A stretch of 64,000 nucleotides of DNA, taken from positions 1-64,000 of the forward strand of contig SVLF01000008.1 in NCBI GenBank assembly GCA_015068085.1, written 5' to 3'. Both the position numbers and the translations under genes were made by a program. Source of the stretch: Oscillospiraceae bacterium. Lineage in GTDB: Bacteria; Bacillota; Clostridia; Oscillospirales; JAAYXM01. A model generated the notes under the pieces. It was not told the origin of the DNA. It saw only the letters and a program-made list of their open reading frames with translations, and searched no databases. Shown piece after piece: positions 54,866 through 61,697 of this stretch. The number at the start of each line of letters is the position of its first letter. Position 1 is the stretch's first letter.

Positions 54866-57800
54866 ATGAAAAAAGTTATTTCAATGCTTCTTGTATTGAG
54901 TATGTTGTTTGGGCTTATGCCAACAATTGCGTTGGGAGCCGAGGGTGATTCGTTTGATGTTACCTTTCTTGATTTAAAGGAGGGGTGTTATCTTGCAACT
55001 ACAACAGTGGGCTCAAATTGGAAGATCGATACGGCAAAAAGCGGCAAGGTTATGGTAAACGGAACAAAAAATGCTGCACGCTGGCAGGTTTCGGCAACGT
55101 ATGCTTTTTTGCAGATTGTAGCAGCGCGGGGAGATCTTGCGCTCAAATTTACTGCGCCTTCGGAGGGAACATACGATATCATTGTTCACCATCAGCCGTA
55201 TGCATCGGGACCAAACCTTGATTTATATATAAACGATACATATGTCGGAACGGTTGACGGAAAAGATGCAAACGGTTCGCACACAATTGTGCGCGAACAA
55301 AAAATAGCGGGAGTAACGCTGAAAGCCGGAGAATATGCAAACAGCATCGTTATGAGAGCGAGTAGCGGCAAATTTCAGTTTCAGGGGATAACTTTTGTGG
55401 AAACATCTTCTCCGGCAGGTATTTCAGAGATAGAGGCAGAAGTTGATAACAACGAAATGTTTGTGGGAACAACACAGAAGATAAACGTTTCGGCACAGCT
55501 TGCAAACGGCGGAAGCTACGATATTGCAAAAGGTGCTGAGAAAATTGAGTATGATGTTTCAGATCCATCGGTTGCAACGGTTTCTGATGACGGAGTCCTG
55601 AGCGCTGTTGGAGCCGGGAACGCCACCGTTACGGTAACTGCCACAGTGAATACAAAACCGTATACTGCAACACTTGATATTATAGCAAAAGTTCCGGTAA
55701 TAAACGAAATGTTTGTCACTGTACCGAGATATATTCTTCTTGATGATGCCGACGGTGAGACGCTTACCGTTTCCGCAAAGCTTACGGATGGCACGGATGT
55801 TGATATGAGCACGGCAACCGTCAGTTATACGTCACAGAACGAGTTCGCAAGCGTTTCTGATAATGGCATTGTAACTCCGGTTTCAGAGGGTATTGCACAA
55901 ATTCTTGTGAGGGTTACTACTCCGGACGGTAAGTTTAAGGAAAAAACGGTGGAAATCCCGATTTCAAAGGAAGTTATCTATCCGTCGTTTGAGCTTTACT
56001 TCAATGAGGAGTACGCATGGGATAAGGTTACCTCGGATGGATATTTCACGGCAGATACCCACGGAAGCAACTGGACGGTGAACAAAGTGCTTTCTGCGGA
56101 TATATTCTACGGCGGGACGACGAATGCCGCCCGTATTCAGAAGGACAAGGTTGAGTACATCTATCTTAAAAATTACGGAGATTTCGCCGTTGACTTTACG
56201 GTTCCGGAGAGTGGATATTATGACCTGACGGCAGAGGCTATACAATATATAAGCACAGGTCTTGCAAAGTTCTATGTAGATGGAAAATATGTCGGCGAAT
56301 ACGATACATATGCTTCGCCGGGCGATATTTATACATCCGTACCGAAAAAGCTTCGGTCTTTATATCTCGAAGAAGGAAAAACACATACTCTTCTTATCCG
56401 AAACGGCGGGAAGACGAGCGGAGGGACAAATCTCTTTATAAGAAGTGTAGGCTTTGAAGGTCGTGCAGCCCTCGACGGAATTTCAAAAGTAGAAATAGAA
56501 AAAGGCCGTTCGACTTATGCGGCAGGAGAGAGCGATGATTACAAAATCCGTGTAACGCAGAATAACGGCGCAGTATACTATCTTCCGCTTGTTTCTTCTG
56601 ACGGCTCGGTTGAGGTAACGCTTCCCGTTACAAGCTCGGAAGAGAATATAGTTTCCGTATCTGACGGAAGCTTTAAGGCAAAAGCCCCCGGCCGTGCAAC
56701 GCTTACAACAGCAGGAAAGCTCAATGGATATGATGTGTCCGGAAGTACGACGGTTACTGTAAGCGACGTTACCTATAAAGAAGTTGATGTAAACCTCTAT
56801 GAAGATACCATATACTTCACCGGAAGCTCGAAGATGCTTGAAGCCTCTGTAATTCTTTCAGACGGAAGCGTTACCGATGCGCGCAATGTTTCAAACGTTC
56901 ATTATGAGATTTCCTGTGACCCGGAAGTGGCAAAAATAGAAAACGGAGTTTTTTACGCACTTTCTGAGGGTGAGGCAACCGTAACGGCATATGCAACCTT
57001 CAATAACACCGAAAAATCCGTAAGCAAAACGGTGAAGATTGAGAACGTTAAGCTTTCTGCAATCACGGCAGAGACAGAAGATACAGTTGTTTCGGCACTG
57101 GATGAGGACGGTTCACGCATTATCGTAACGGGAGTAAAGAACAACGGCGAAACCGTGGCGCTCGATGGTGAGACAACTATTTTCAGCTATGAAAATCTCA
57201 CGCCGGATATAATTGTTGCCGATGAAGGTTATGCATATTATGTATCACGCGGCGTCGGTACAGTGCGTGTGACAGCAAAGAATGAAGCTGAGGGCTGGGA
57301 GTTTTCATGCGATGCGAAGTTTATATCAAGCTCGTCAAAAGCAGAGCCTACGATATACACAAATGTGATGCGCGAAAACGCCCTCAAAAATGCAAAAACA
57401 TATGACTGGGCAAAATCCCTTGTGGAAACAACCAAGAAAAATGCCGATAAATGGGTAGAAAACATCGACCTTTTGTATGACGCGGTGCCCACGGAAGGCA
57501 TTCCGCGCGGATATACTATCGCAACGCTTACATCTCCGGCAAATATGACATATATTTGTCCCGGTTGTGAGGTCAGCGTTGCAAAGACGACGGGCGCATA
57601 TTCGTGGGTAGTTGACCCGATTAACCGTCCGTGGAAGGTTCAGTGCCCCAACTGTAAGAGATTGTTCCCGTCAAACGACTTTGAAAGCTTCTATAAGCTC
57701 GGTATAACAGATGAGGGAACTTTCTCGCGTGAGCTGGCGCTTGAAAACCACCGTGCTCTTTTCGCTGATGAGTATGCAAAGACCGGAAGAGACTACGGCT

Positions 57801-60800
57801 ACGGTTATCTCAAAAATGAGCTGTATTCTGACAAGGACAGCACGTGGATGGTAGACGACGGCTTCGGCTGGTCCCCGCGTGACGGTGTTCCGGGATCGGA
57901 TGAGAGCGTTGTAACAAACCCGAAGTGGTCAACAATTGCCCACTATCACCATAAGCTTTGGAACAATAACGGAGCAGAAACATCAATTCTTTCGCGTGCG
58001 CTTATGGATCTGTACGAGGCGTATCTTTACACAGGAGATAAAAAATACGGCCGTGCAGGCGTTATCCTTCTTGACCGTATGGCAGATGTTTATCCGGCTT
58101 ATGATATTCAGAAGGTAAGCCTTTCATATCCTCACTCCCACGGCGGAGATTATTCGGGAAAGACCGTCGGTAATATCTGGGAAACACGTGTTGCGGAGCC
58201 TCTTATCCGCGCTTATGATGCTTTTTATCCAATGATGGATGATTCTGAGGTTATAAAATATCTTTCCGAGCGTGCACGAACGCTCAAGGGTGTAATAAAT
58301 CCCAAAACGAGCGGCGATTTAATCCGCGAGAACATTGAAAACAATGTTATCCGTGAGAGCTTTAGGGCGGCGAAAGAAGCCAAAATCTTCGGCAACTTCG
58401 GTATGCATCAGCTGGTTGTAACGCTCGCGGCGGTTGCGCTTGATGTAGAGAAAGAGACAAACGAGATGTTTGATTGGCTTATCAAACCGTTTGGAGAAAC
58501 AAAGGTGAAGGTATACGATACGGTATACCAGAACCGTGAATTTAATGCAACCGTTGAGACAAAGGGCGGCGAAATGCTTACCCGATATATGAACGAGGTT
58601 GACCGTGATGGGTTCGGAAACGAAGCAGGCGTAGGATACAATCTGCTCTGGCTGACCGAAGGGCTTGACATTGCAGAAACGATTTATCGATATGGCGCGG
58701 ATTCTGCCCTCAATCTTTTTGAAAATCCCAAATTCGTTAAGATGTTCAATACATTTATAAAAGAGCATGTAGGTAACGGATATGTACTGCATATCGGTGA
58801 TTCGGGCGCAGCGGGAAATAAGGGAAAAGCGAATATTGCGGATTCTACTCTCCGTGCATTTAATATGCTCGGTGATCCGCAGCTTGCAAAGAATTACTAC
58901 TGGGCGGTAGGCGGCGAGCTTGACGATATTCATATCGATATGTTCAGTGACAACTCAAGCCTTGCAGACAGAATACAGAAAATTATTGATGAAGAGGGCG
59001 AATATAAATTCGTCAGTGAAAATCTCACGGGCTTTGGGCTCGGTCTTCTTCGTGGCGGCGAGCTTGTAAAGAGTACAGGTGCTATCCCGGATCGCGATTT
59101 CCGCCACGATGTGTGGATGTATTACGGAAGAAACTCCGGCCACGGACACCGCGATATGCTGCAAATCGGCGTTAATGCTTATGGCTTTAACTTTATGCCT
59201 GACCTCGGCTATCCGGAAGCTACCGGAAACGATGAAAACCGCTTCCAGTGGGTAATGAATACCCTTTCTCATAATACGGTTGTTGTAAATGACGATTATC
59301 AGAACGGAATTTACGGCGGAACACCGCTTCACTTCGATAGCACAGATACGGTTCAGATTATGGATGTCGAAGCACCGAATGCATATGCGGAAACTGAGGA
59401 ATATCGTAGAACCGTTGTTTCCGTTGCGGCGTCAAACGAGGTTGCGTATACTGTTGATTTCTTCCGCGTGAAGGGAGGAAAGAGCCATACCTACAGCTTC
59501 CACACCCAGTCGTACATGGGATATTCAACGGACGATTTAACCCTTGTTCCGCAGGTGGATGAAAACGGAAATTACGAGGATACATATGCGGGACATGACA
59601 TCACCGCTGTTTATCTCGATCCGGCGACAGGCAAGGTGGTTGGAGAAAAAGAGGTTGAATACGGAGGGGACCCGAACGGACTTAACTTCACGGCTGCGTA
59701 TACGACTATGTTCCCGCGCGGGTATACATGGCTTACCAACGTAAACCGTGCAAAGGATATAGAGAGCGGAAGCTTTACCGTGAACTTTAAGCAGACCGAC
59801 TTTAACAAGCAGGTTGCAGACTCTTCAGACCTCAATATGAAGTATACCGCGGTAAATGACTGGACGCCGACAGGTCTTGGCATCGTTACCGGATATGCAC
59901 CGAGAACTGCAAGCAACAAAAATGTTCCGGGGCTTGATTATATGCTCATCCACAGAACAAGCGACGAAGAGCTTGACACTCTCTTCACCTCGGTTCTTCA
60001 GCCGTATAAGGGAGAAGAGTATATCGCGGATATCAAATCCGTTCCCGTTCTTTCCGGCGGGGAACAGGTTTCCGAAAACGAGGCAAAGGCAGTTCGTGTA
60101 ACGCTCACAAACGGAAGAGTAGACTACGTCATTTACGCGCCGGACAGCGAAAAAACCTACGCGGTTTCCGATAAGTTCATAAATTCCGGGAATAAAGAAA
60201 TCCCCGTAAGCTTTAATTTCAATGGCTTTGTGGGGGTATATACGGTGAATGATGAAGGCAAGAATATTTATTCCTATATGAATGATGGAACGCTTATCGG
60301 TGAAATGAGCGGCATCGGCAAATATACCGGTGAGGTTGTAAGCTTTACTGAGGAGCTTACGGATAAGAACTATATAACGGTAAGCTTTAACGAAGAGGTT
60401 GACCTTTCCCGTCTTGCGGGGGAATATATCTACATCGCAAACACCGGAACTCAGAACGGCTCTTATCGCATTATAAGCGCTGAAGAAAATGAGGCAAACA
60501 GCGCATATGTTGATTTATTCCTCGGAGATGTAAACGTGATAAAATCGTATGCACAAAATGCCAATCCCGAGGCGGGCTTTCTCTATAACATTGCAAAGTT
60601 CCAGAAATTTGAGATTCTGCTTTCCGAAGAATACGATGTAAAGCCCGATTTGAGCCTTAGTATATCAGGAAAGCTTTCGGTATCGGCAGGAAGCTCTGTA
60701 AGCGTGGATGTAAATGCAGGCAGCGAGGCTTCATCATCATTTACATTCGTTGGAAAGGTGCTCCCGCGCGGCGCATCCGTAAATTCGGAAACAGGCGTTG

Positions 60801-61654
60801 TTACATGGAAACCGGATTCGAGCCAGGTGGGCGAGGCAGGCTTTGTAATCGCGGCAGTTGACGAAGACGGACGCGAAGGCACAGTAAGCTTTGAGATAAC
60901 CGTTTACGGAAGCACGACAGGCGCATCGGCAAATAAAGGCGAGAATGAATCTTCTTCCGGAAATGCCGGAGGTTCTGCCGGCGGCGGAGGCGGCGGTGGC
61001 GCCGCACCGACCGACAAGCCGGAAATTGATGATGGTAAGGCGGAAAGCGACAGCGAAAAATCACCCGAGGCCTCGGGTGAAACGGAGAAGCTCCGTTTCA
61101 CAGACACCGCTAACCACGCCTGGGCAGAGAATGCGATAAACGAGCTTGCGGCTGATGGAATAATAAAGGGCACGACTGCAAGCACATTCTCTCCGGCATC
61201 AAACATCACCCGCGCAGACTTTGCAATTCTCTTGGTGCGCGCGTTTAAGCTCAAAAGCGAAAATGCGGAGAACTTTGCAGATGTAAATGCATCCGATTAT
61301 TTCGCATCTGAGATTGCAATAGCACGCAATACCGGCATCGTCAACGGTATAGGTGATAACAAGTATGCTCCCCGCAACACCATCACTCGTCAGGATATGA
61401 TGGTAATCGTCCACCGCGCACTTAATAATAAGCCTCCCTTGCCTAAAGGGAGGGGGACCGTCGAAGACGGTGGAGGGATTTACCCCGACTTCGCCACTGT
61501 CGCACCTTACGCGAAGGAAGCTGTCACTGCACTTATTGGCGCAGGACTCGTCAACGGCAAGAGCGGTCTCATCGCCCCGGCGGATTACACAACAAGAGCC
61601 GAGGTCGCAGTGCTGATTAAGAGAATACTGGATTATAAAGCCTCCCTTGCCTAA
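54866..61654 (+). CDS. Giant SLH-anchored heparinase II/III-type polysaccharide lyase
   Basis: 2262 residues. Signal peptide to about residue 25. Two homologous carbohydrate-binding-like domains (about 28-180, 370-540; compare GSNWKIDTAKSGKVMVNGTKNAAR and GSNWTVNKVLSADIFYGGTTNAAR by position) alternate with Big_2-type Ig domains (about 185-370 and 540-825; SDDGVLSAVGAGNATVTV). A lyase part follows (about 830-1700): CxxC pairs TYICPGCE and CPNCKRLFP near 890-930, an alpha-toroid, then the heparinase II/III segment NSGHGHRDMLQIGVNAYG near 1425. Next come a putative Ig domain, a Gly/Ser/acidic linker and three SLH modules (about 2075-2262). Likely cuts a uronate-containing glycan at the cell wall. 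A palindromic repeat is translated inside the SLH part and another supplies the stop. Confidence 0.88.
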   Translation: MKKVISMLLVLSMLFGLMPTIALGAEGDSFDVTFLDLKEGCYLATTTVGSNWKIDTAKSGKVMVNGTKNAARWQVSATYAFLQIVAARGDLALKFTAPSEGTYDIIVHHQPYASGPNLDLYINDTYVGTVDGKDANGSHTIVREQKIAGVTLKAGEYANSIVMRASSGKFQFQGITFVETSSPAGISEIEAEVDNNEMFVGTTQKINVSAQLANGGSYDIAKGAEKIEYDVSDPSVATVSDDGVLSAVGAGNATVTVTATVNTKPYTATLDIIAKVPVINEMFVTVPRYILLDDADGETLTVSAKLTDGTDVDMSTATVSYTSQNEFASVSDNGIVTPVSEGIAQILVRVTTPDGKFKEKTVEIPISKEVIYPSFELYFNEEYAWDKVTSDGYFTADTHGSNWTVNKVLSADIFYGGTTNAARIQKDKVEYIYLKNYGDFAVDFTVPESGYYDLTAEAIQYISTGLAKFYVDGKYVGEYDTYASPGDIYTSVPKKLRSLYLEEGKTHTLLIRNGGKTSGGTNLFIRSVGFEGRAALDGISKVEIEKGRSTYAAGESDDYKIRVTQNNGAVYYLPLVSSDGSVEVTLPVTSSEENIVSVSDGSFKAKAPGRATLTTAGKLNGYDVSGSTTVTVSDVTYKEVDVNLYEDTIYFTGSSKMLEASVILSDGSVTDARNVSNVHYEISCDPEVAKIENGVFYALSEGEATVTAYATFNNTEKSVSKTVKIENVKLSAITAETEDTVVSALDEDGSRIIVTGVKNNGETVALDGETTIFSYENLTPDIIVADEGYAYYVSRGVGTVRVTAKNEAEGWEFSCDAKFISSSSKAEPTIYTNVMRENALKNAKTYDWAKSLVETTKKNADKWVENIDLLYDAVPTEGIPRGYTIATLTSPANMTYICPGCEVSVAKTTGAYSWVVDPINRPWKVQCPNCKRLFPSNDFESFYKLGITDEGTFSRELALENHRALFADEYAKTGRDYGYGYLKNELYSDKDSTWMVDDGFGWSPRDGVPGSDESVVTNPKWSTIAHYHHKLWNNNGAETSILSRALMDLYEAYLYTGDKKYGRAGVILLDRMADVYPAYDIQKVSLSYPHSHGGDYSGKTVGNIWETRVAEPLIRAYDAFYPMMDDSEVIKYLSERARTLKGVINPKTSGDLIRENIENNVIRESFRAAKEAKIFGNFGMHQLVVTLAAVALDVEKETNEMFDWLIKPFGETKVKVYDTVYQNREFNATVETKGGEMLTRYMNEVDRDGFGNEAGVGYNLLWLTEGLDIAETIYRYGADSALNLFENPKFVKMFNTFIKEHVGNGYVLHIGDSGAAGNKGKANIADSTLRAFNMLGDPQLAKNYYWAVGGELDDIHIDMFSDNSSLADRIQKIIDEEGEYKFVSENLTGFGLGLLRGGELVKSTGAIPDRDFRHDVWMYYGRNSGHGHRDMLQIGVNAYGFNFMPDLGYPEATGNDENRFQWVMNTLSHNTVVVNDDYQNGIYGGTPLHFDSTDTVQIMDVEAPNAYAETEEYRRTVVSVAASNEVAYTVDFFRVKGGKSHTYSFHTQSYMGYSTDDLTLVPQVDENGNYEDTYAGHDITAVYLDPATGKVVGEKEVEYGGDPNGLNFTAAYTTMFPRGYTWLTNVNRAKDIESGSFTVNFKQTDFNKQVADSSDLNMKYTAVNDWTPTGLGIVTGYAPRTASNKNVPGLDYMLIHRTSDEELDTLFTSVLQPYKGEEYIADIKSVPVLSGGEQVSENEAKAVRVTLTNGRVDYVIYAPDSEKTYAVSDKFINSGNKEIPVSFNFNGFVGVYTVNDEGKNIYSYMNDGTLIGEMSGIGKYTGEVVSFTEELTDKNYITVSFNEEVDLSRLAGEYIYIANTGTQNGSYRIISAEENEANSAYVDLFLGDVNVIKSYAQNANPEAGFLYNIAKFQKFEILLSEEYDVKPDLSLSISGKLSVSAGSSVSVDVNAGSEASSSFTFVGKVLPRGASVNSETGVVTWKPDSSQVGEAGFVIAAVDEDGREGTVSFEITVYGSTTGASANKGENESSSGNAGGSAGGGGGGGAAPTDKPEIDDGKAESDSEKSPEASGETEKLRFTDTANHAWAENAINELAADGIIKGTTASTFSPASNITRADFAILLVRAFKLKSENAENFADVNASDYFASEIAIARNTGIVNGIGDNKYAPRNTITRQDMMVIVHRALNNKPPLPKGRGTVEDGGGIYPDFATVAPYAKEAVTALIGAGLVNGKSGLIAPADYTTRAEVAVLIKRILDYKASLA
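61430..61493. repeat. Palindromic interspersed repeat translated within the SLH region (copy A)
   Basis: The stretch beginning AAGCCTCCCTTGCCTAAAGG contains nested dyads (CCTCCCTT/AAGGGAGG; ACCGTCGAAGACGGT) and ends in GGTGGAGGGATTTA. It is read in frame as a foreign Pro/Gly/Lys-rich insert (KPPLPKGRGTVEDGGGIYP) between the second and third SLH modules. A second copy lies 208 bases downstream. Confidence 0.82.
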
Positions 61655-61697
61655 AGGGAGGGGGACCGCCAAATGGCGGTGGAGGGATTTTATCCCC
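61637..61697. repeat. Palindromic interspersed repeat at the end of the giant gene (copy B)
   Basis: Same opening sequence as copy A from 61638, with a different inner stem (ACCGCCAAATGGCGGT) and the same GGTGGAGGGATTT end. The TAA stop of the lyase gene (61652-61654) lies inside its first arm, so the last residues (KASLA) are encoded by the repeat. Confidence 0.85.

Follow-up and report, generated by a model that had tools for sequence, protein, structure and literature searches.

Short palindromic repeats that occur both between genes and in frame inside proteins are known from the Rickettsia palindromic elements (RPE) and the protein-coding palindromes of Wolbachia; as outlined in the literature, RPE are about 105–150 bp long and lie in unrelated, largely metabolic genes (Ogata et al., via PMC2229807, PMC10969869). 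The element considered here shares the double habit of both systems, but compared with RPE as described it is shorter (45–54 bp, plus nested forms) and concentrated in one linker of one surface-protein family, where several repeat types occupy the same site and frame-adapted versions are spread among paralogues. The MITE-like enterobacterial repeats RU-1/2/3 (ERIC, YPAL) and the 107-bp Correia/NEMIS elements also contribute open frames fused to genes (PMC2759123, PMC2229807), although here no target duplication was found, and sequence, host phylum and distribution differ. GTAG- and CGTC-tagged REPs are likewise small palindromes, some of them inside genes, and for recB, two Xanthomonas species are reported to carry different REPs at roughly one position (PMC3733652). 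Several of the linker repeats described below (F3 and types from assembly G001) start with GTAG; however, the family to which our two focal copies belong (F1) has no GTAG end, and a Y1_Tnp/RAYT gene was not found in the genome.

In-frame palindromic repeats are therefore already known (Rickettsia, Wolbachia, enterobacteria), as scattered single events. What is new here is that several repeat types are concentrated in a single linker of a large surface-protein family, together with frame adaptation, nesting and spread among paralogues. In the open-licence subset of the literature searched, there was no report of repeats in the linkers of SLH domains, nor of this Clostridia element in coding sequence.

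Two repeat copies at the end of a giant lyase gene

A sequence-only reading of the window (the whole 64-kb stretch of DNA analysed) had proposed that two copies of one element lie 208 bases apart at the end of a giant lyase gene, the first keeping the frame next to SLH modules 2/3 and the second donating the stop codon. The features concerned are as follows.

54866..61654, + strand: giant surface enzyme gene, 2,262 aa (ORF call, translation, Pfam)
61061..61080, + strand: perfect 20-nt palindrome TCACCCGAGG/CCTCGGGTGA in the pre-SLH1 linker (SPEASGE), with covarying palindromic variants in paralogues
61077..61101, + strand: second coding palindrome, 11-nt arms GTGAAACGGAG/CTCCGTTTCAC, reaching the first SLH1 residues
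61088..61651, + strand: C-terminal SLH triple (Pfam; PDB sequence matches to Sap/SbsB SLH; predicted fold matches 3pyw and 7sv4)
61424..61507, + strand: SLH2–SLH3 linker, 28 codons
61432..61479, + strand: copy A, 48-nt element core, family F1, frame-1 variant (class F1a), GCCTCCC...GGAGGGAT; BLAST match 61429–61481
61433–61440/61446–61453, + strand: copy A stem 1 (folding)
61457–61462/61466–61471, + strand: copy A stem 2 (folding)
61640..61688, + strand: copy B, 49-nt element core; BLAST match 61638–61690
61641–61648/61654–61661, + strand: copy B stem 1 (folding)
61665–61670/61675–61680, + strand: copy B stem 2 (folding)

Both copies are present at the gene end, with a start spacing of 208–209. 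Each is about 50 bp long and folds as two hairpins (z about -2.6/-2.7), and the whole window contains exactly two occurrences of the 20-base arm pattern CTCCCTTGCCTAAAGGGAGG, compared to 0 expected from 100 shuffles. As had been read, the outer arms are alike and the inner stems are not: stem 1 (CCTCCCTT/AAGGGAGG) is common to both copies, while stem 2 is ACCGTC-GAA-GACGGT in copy A and ACCGCC-AAAT-GGCGGT in copy B. Copy A does keep the frame: it lies between SLH modules 2 and 3 and translates to the peptide KPPLPKGRGTVEDGGGI. Copy B reads KASLA, and its TAA at 61652–61654 terminates the ORF 54866–61654, giving the lyase the C-terminus LDYKASLA. The same junction (GATTATAAAGCCTCCCTTGCCTAA) ends five paralogues (the window lyase, L094, L096, L097 and L117), which continue into two element variants; the C-termini of other paralogues are mostly LDYIK, LDYVK and similar before the stop. 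The stop donation is genuine, yet only the last few residues are changed (KASLA rather than ...IK before the stop).

The encoded protein comprises Big-like, hyaluronate-lyase N-beta, heparinase II/III-like and He_PIG domains, a Gly-rich stretch and three SLH modules (Pfam and translation), with Ig-like domains in addition to the heparinase-like region; Pfam confirmed the SLH modules and the heparinase II/III-like region. Its predicted three-module fold is that of known SLH surface-anchor domains (PF00395; 3pyw, 7sv4), from which it differs in that the linker between modules 2 and 3 is extended by a repeat-derived peptide. This linker has 28 codons, compared to 22–23 in repeat-free paralogues and up to 66 in others. 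An AlphaFold2 model of the SLH triple from a shallow three-sequence alignment was of moderate confidence (mean pLDDT 60), with the solved SLH structures 3pyw and 7sv4 as top structural matches. In the model, residues 115–138 (the insert and adjoining linker) lie between helices of modules 2 and 3, with pLDDT <50 and no secondary structure. The linker is thus predicted to be an unstructured loop, which fits a tolerance of inserts, short of proof.

Other palindromes surround the SLH tail. The coding palindrome ACCCGAGGCCTCGGGT (61061–61101 and paralogues) has four perfectly palindromic variants, counted in a scan of both strands in which perfect palindromes count twice, with paired synonymous changes among them (CCC..TCG versus CCG..TCC), which looks as though the whole palindrome had been retained or exchanged in one piece. 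The pre-SLH1 linker of many paralogues contains an in-frame repeat, DDESLLLEEKVPSxGEADEV, from AGCCTTCTCCTTGAGGAGAAGG...GGATGAGGTG; it is found in G000 (L083, L088, L092, L098, L100, L106, L109, L112, L114, L129, L140, L147, L149) and G002 (L221, L226, L229, L230), and pre-SLH1 linkers in G001 read VGEDIILPP and VGNGGSDVP. In L083, L085, L088, L093, L106, L130 and L146 a repeat TTTTGCATTTTGCAC...TGTGCGGCAACGCCGCAC lies 3' of the stop. Beyond it comes another, dissimilar remnant of an SLH C-terminus (VAVLIKRILDY...), much as though the tails had been exchanged while their former ends stayed in place.

Distribution of the element and its concentration in one linker

The element has the layout GCCTCCCTTGCCTAAAGGGAGGGGGACC-variable stem-loop-GGTGGAGGGAT, with ends (AAGCCTCCCT and GGAGGGATTT) that are complementary only in part. 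When 15 different copies of 49 nt from other Clostridia are compared, the arms of stem 2 covary (99.5% of cells are paired, a value reached by 0 of 500 shuffles); stem 1 shows no variation, having been a requirement of the search. An Rfam search gave no match at the gathering score and nothing near threshold. The element was found in 31 of 197 genomes of the order, and in many Clostridia it lies between genes; a long F1a match with SLH junctions occurs only in the genome of the window.

That genome (3.17 Mb in 145 contigs, 87.8% complete, the window being one contig) contains 44 BLAST matches to the element and about 41 F1 places, approximate counts drawn from pattern, BLAST and six-frame protein searches; an 18-base core with ≤2 mismatches has 22 matches, and the reversed-pattern control 0. 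About 22 of the ~41 F1 places sit in SLH2/SLH3 linkers, which make up 0.16% of the genome, compared to a background in other Clostridia genomes in which 3 of 111 exact-match copies, among the matches listed, overlap an ORF >150 aa. The p-values for this concentration are indicative only, since copies spread by exchange are not independent and the background is restricted to exact matches among those listed. The same repeat is both intergenic and in frame inside genes, in this genome and in other Clostridia. The central proposal of the sequence-only reading, a palindromic repeat translated in a surface protein while a second copy gives the stop, is upheld, the repeat being intergenic elsewhere. 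Mobility, which that reading also claimed, is suggested by copy number only: across 108 flank pairs no direct repeat clearly exceeded re-paired controls, as a target-site duplication would, and no Y1_Tnp (PF01797)/RAYT gene was detected in the 3.17 Mb, in a search that detected its positive controls. A RAYT-driven REP was rejected on the absence of a PF01797 match from this 87.8% complete genome.

Most captures lie in one paralogous family. The others include a single-stranded DNA-binding (SSB) protein (L161, G000:C6:18738-18791), where an F1 copy in antisense orientation is read in frame after the OB fold and ahead of the acidic C-terminal tip; a 433-aa ORF with no Pfam match (L159, G000:C111:2905-2957); and a 350-aa acidic protein of another species (L345). 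The antisense element has open frames, which are translated in the SSB protein and one other ORF.

A search with the SLH triple found about 72 close paralogues in the genome, mostly in ORFs of 1,000–3,000 codons. Some 72 giant SLH surface proteins in 3.2 Mb is an unusual expansion, and many resemble the window lyase. About 37 carry a palindromic repeat in the SLH2/SLH3 linker and about 33 the native linker of 22–23 residues. The repeats comprise four element types, two F1 reading frames and a nested insert of ~90 bp.

F1a (copy A type, PPLPKGRGTVEDGGGI): 10 linkers
F1b (ASLALKGGGPSNDGGGI, another F1 frame): 7 linkers
F1c (F1-like variant fused to an F1 remnant): 3 linkers
F2 (LLLEEKGDRRMAVDEV): 5 linkers
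F3 (VGEGLRALPSTDEV): 3 linkers
F4 (SLPLEGKVSAELTDEV): 1 linker
Nested ~90-bp insert (SEAERNVGAAMNDSPVDYQNRDVTEPGEM) in hosts of classes F1a, F1b, F1c and F2: 6 complete and 2 interrupted where the contig ends

The nested form is also intergenic (L021, C103). F1b has one added base (CCCTAAA or CCTTAAA), by which an in-frame TAA is removed, and the frame in which the same repeat DNA is translated varies from paralogue to paralogue. Repeat DNA, rather than domains, explains the Pro/Gly-rich peptides that recur in the family (PPLPKGRGT, SLPLEGK, NDSPVDYQNRDVTEP). Perfect inverted repeats cover 8.4% of the linkers in this genome, compared to 0.7% in synonymous-codon shuffles.

In a metagenome assembly as fragmented as this one, SLH tails that do not belong together could in principle have been fused through repeats of 50–90 bp, and the 145 contigs, the 87.8% completeness, the contig ends inside nested copies (L144, L147) and two SLH regions 98.6–99.5% identical between bins all suit such an artefact. 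We nevertheless consider it very improbable, as the repeat is internal in dozens of contigs within one continuous frame of 1,000–3,000 codons, simple copies are shorter than usual read lengths, and three other assemblies of the genus have the same habit with other repeats. The near-identical regions (L131/L261, 98.6%; L121/L268, 99.5%) come from assemblies of different species and reflect either recent transfer or misbinning.

Relations among linker copies and their probable spread

The insertion had been taken as private to the window lyase, which it is not: the frame-1 variant of copy A (with the GTCGAAGAC loop) is also found in about 11 other paralogues. Its left junction (NNK) is common to L084/L140 and its right junction (GIYPD) to L152, so that copy A looks like a mosaic received from paralogues.

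Within inserts, four-fold sites are 100% identical in F1a (414 pairwise sites) and F1b (262) and 91–93% identical in F2. Flank four-fold sites are ~37–67% identical, like those of paralogues with no repeat; one four-fold comparison anchored the flanks at the insert edge, where F1a/F1c members with other junctions are misaligned, and two other flank comparisons, including that of fine-scale identity decay, use linker boundaries. The flanks are thus saturated at four-fold sites while the inserts are identical, and fine-scale identity is back at the native level ~20–30 nt from the insert. Insert classes are scattered on the tree of the flanking modules (29 changes compared to 26–33 when shuffled; 2 of 63 branches starred). 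Plain inheritance with the SLH module was rejected, being opposed by the flank divergence and the poorly resolved flank tree. A special recombination breakpoint at the linker was likewise set aside, as paralogue-distance correlations across it are no lower than across other boundaries.

If the linker DNA were a hot target of an active palindromic element, with most paralogues hit independently and selection keeping only the in-frame inserts, this could account for the identical inserts between saturated flanks, for the occurrence of four or more element types, two frames of F1 and nested copies at a single site, and for the different palindromes of orthologous genes. We regard this as rather unlikely. 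Independent insertion should yield both orientations, but F1 linker copies have one orientation in 22 of 22 (two-sided p 5e-7, indicative as copies are not independent), with no antisense F1 found in SLH2/SLH3 linkers of this genome. It should also yield intergenic-type sequences, yet each frame class carries its own variants: none of the intergenic F1 copies read in this genome has the frame-1 GTCGAAGAC loop (it is intergenic in other Clostridia, L319 and L405), and F1b-type loops (CCCTAAA/CCTTAAA) are confined to SLH genes except for the copies in C2, C6 and C111. Junction residues, moreover, are common to members within a linker class.

Together, identical inserts, diverged flanks, scattered tree positions, one orientation and frame-specific variants favour few founder captures followed by very short-tract copying among paralogues, which we consider the best explanation overall and probably the correct one. 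The source would be the two-hairpin repeats of ~45–54 bp (and longer nested forms) that are mainly intergenic in many gut Clostridia; this polarity, from intergenic repeat to linker, is suggested by the wide intergenic occurrence of the element and by native linkers being common across the genus. A few copies would have been captured in frame in the exposed SLH2/SLH3 linker of the large surface-enzyme family, which may accept inserts because the loop is modelled as unstructured and all three SLH modules survive an insertion that keeps the frame, with a near-neutral effect on the protein. Founders would have been fitted to the frame through changes in loops rather than stems, frame 1 as the 48-nt form and the second F1 frame by one extra base, which abolishes the in-frame TAA. 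From there, linkers with a repeat may have been passed among the ~72 divergent paralogues through exchange of very short tracts (gene conversion), so that about half of them lost the native 22–23-residue linker, with copies recombining and nesting. Copy A would be one product of this capture and exchange, and copy B would have arisen likewise at the 3' end of the gene, the TAA of the element becoming the stop in five paralogues.

Several points count against this explanation. Tracts of less than ~100 nt are unusually short for gene conversion, which is itself inferred and not observed, and for the founder step (transposition or template switching) neither a target-site duplication nor an enzyme was found. 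Constraint on the palindrome, or a single source copy inserted repeatedly, could likewise account for the perfect identity at four-fold sites.

Repeat-bearing linkers in other species of the genus

SLH tails number 57 in assembly G001, 17 in G002 and 45 in G004, all of the same genus. Palindromes of other types occupy their linkers: G001 has GTAGGGGCGGATATCATCCGCCC with its relatives, G002 has GTAGGGGAGGGTCTCCGCGCCCTCCC and G004 has CCTTCCCCTTGAGGGGAAGG. F1 itself is found in linkers of G001 (L282) and G002 (L222), read in yet another way. F2 is nearly identical in G004 although its flanks are only ~79% identical, and age and constraint are for this reason hard to separate. The closest orthologues of the window lyase have the following at the site of copy A.

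L293, 69% identity: G001-type palindrome
L225, 69% identity: F3
L228, 64% identity: third element
L265, 63% identity: no repeat
L244, 61% identity: F4 type

The same peptide is thus absent from these relatives, whose orthologues have other palindromes or the native linker at this site; the sequence-only reading had named the same insert in orthologues of distant genera as the mark of an old protein feature. Were the Pro/Gly-rich peptide instead an inherited SLH linker, with the intergenic repeats derived from it, nested and simple forms would be expected in many paralogues, as is the case. This reading is nonetheless barely credible, being strongly contradicted by orthologues lacking the peptide, by the repeat being intergenic in many Clostridia, by native 22–23-residue linkers common to four species of the genus and by the translation of one DNA in different frames in different paralogues.

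It is also conceivable, if improbable, that SLH linkers in this genus are a cassette-like zone of diversification, in which palindromes serve as portable modules exchanged among dozens of enzymes and are kept because variation in linker length and charge is useful, tuning or disguising the surface enzymes. Linkers range from 22 to 66 residues within one family, repeats have been captured before SLH1 too, and inverted-repeat coverage of linkers is ~10-fold that of synonymous shuffles; the sister species, in which this coverage is 8.8%, 10.5% and 6.0%, have the same habit with other repeats. However, a dedicated enzyme was not found, distance correlations across the linker are no lower than elsewhere, about half of the paralogues retain the native linker, and the same repeats occur in the SSB linker, which fits mere tolerance.

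Whether spread by founder capture and short-tract exchange, as we favour, or otherwise, copies A and B belong to a pattern that runs through the family, in which repeat DNA has taken over a protein loop. With ~70 paralogues and one linker, the family offers tens of parallel cases of in-frame repeats and has built-in controls in its native linkers, two F1 frames, nested inserts and sister species with other repeats. Neutral versus useful shaping of proteins by repeat DNA therefore becomes directly testable, as does the movement of repeat copies between paralogues.
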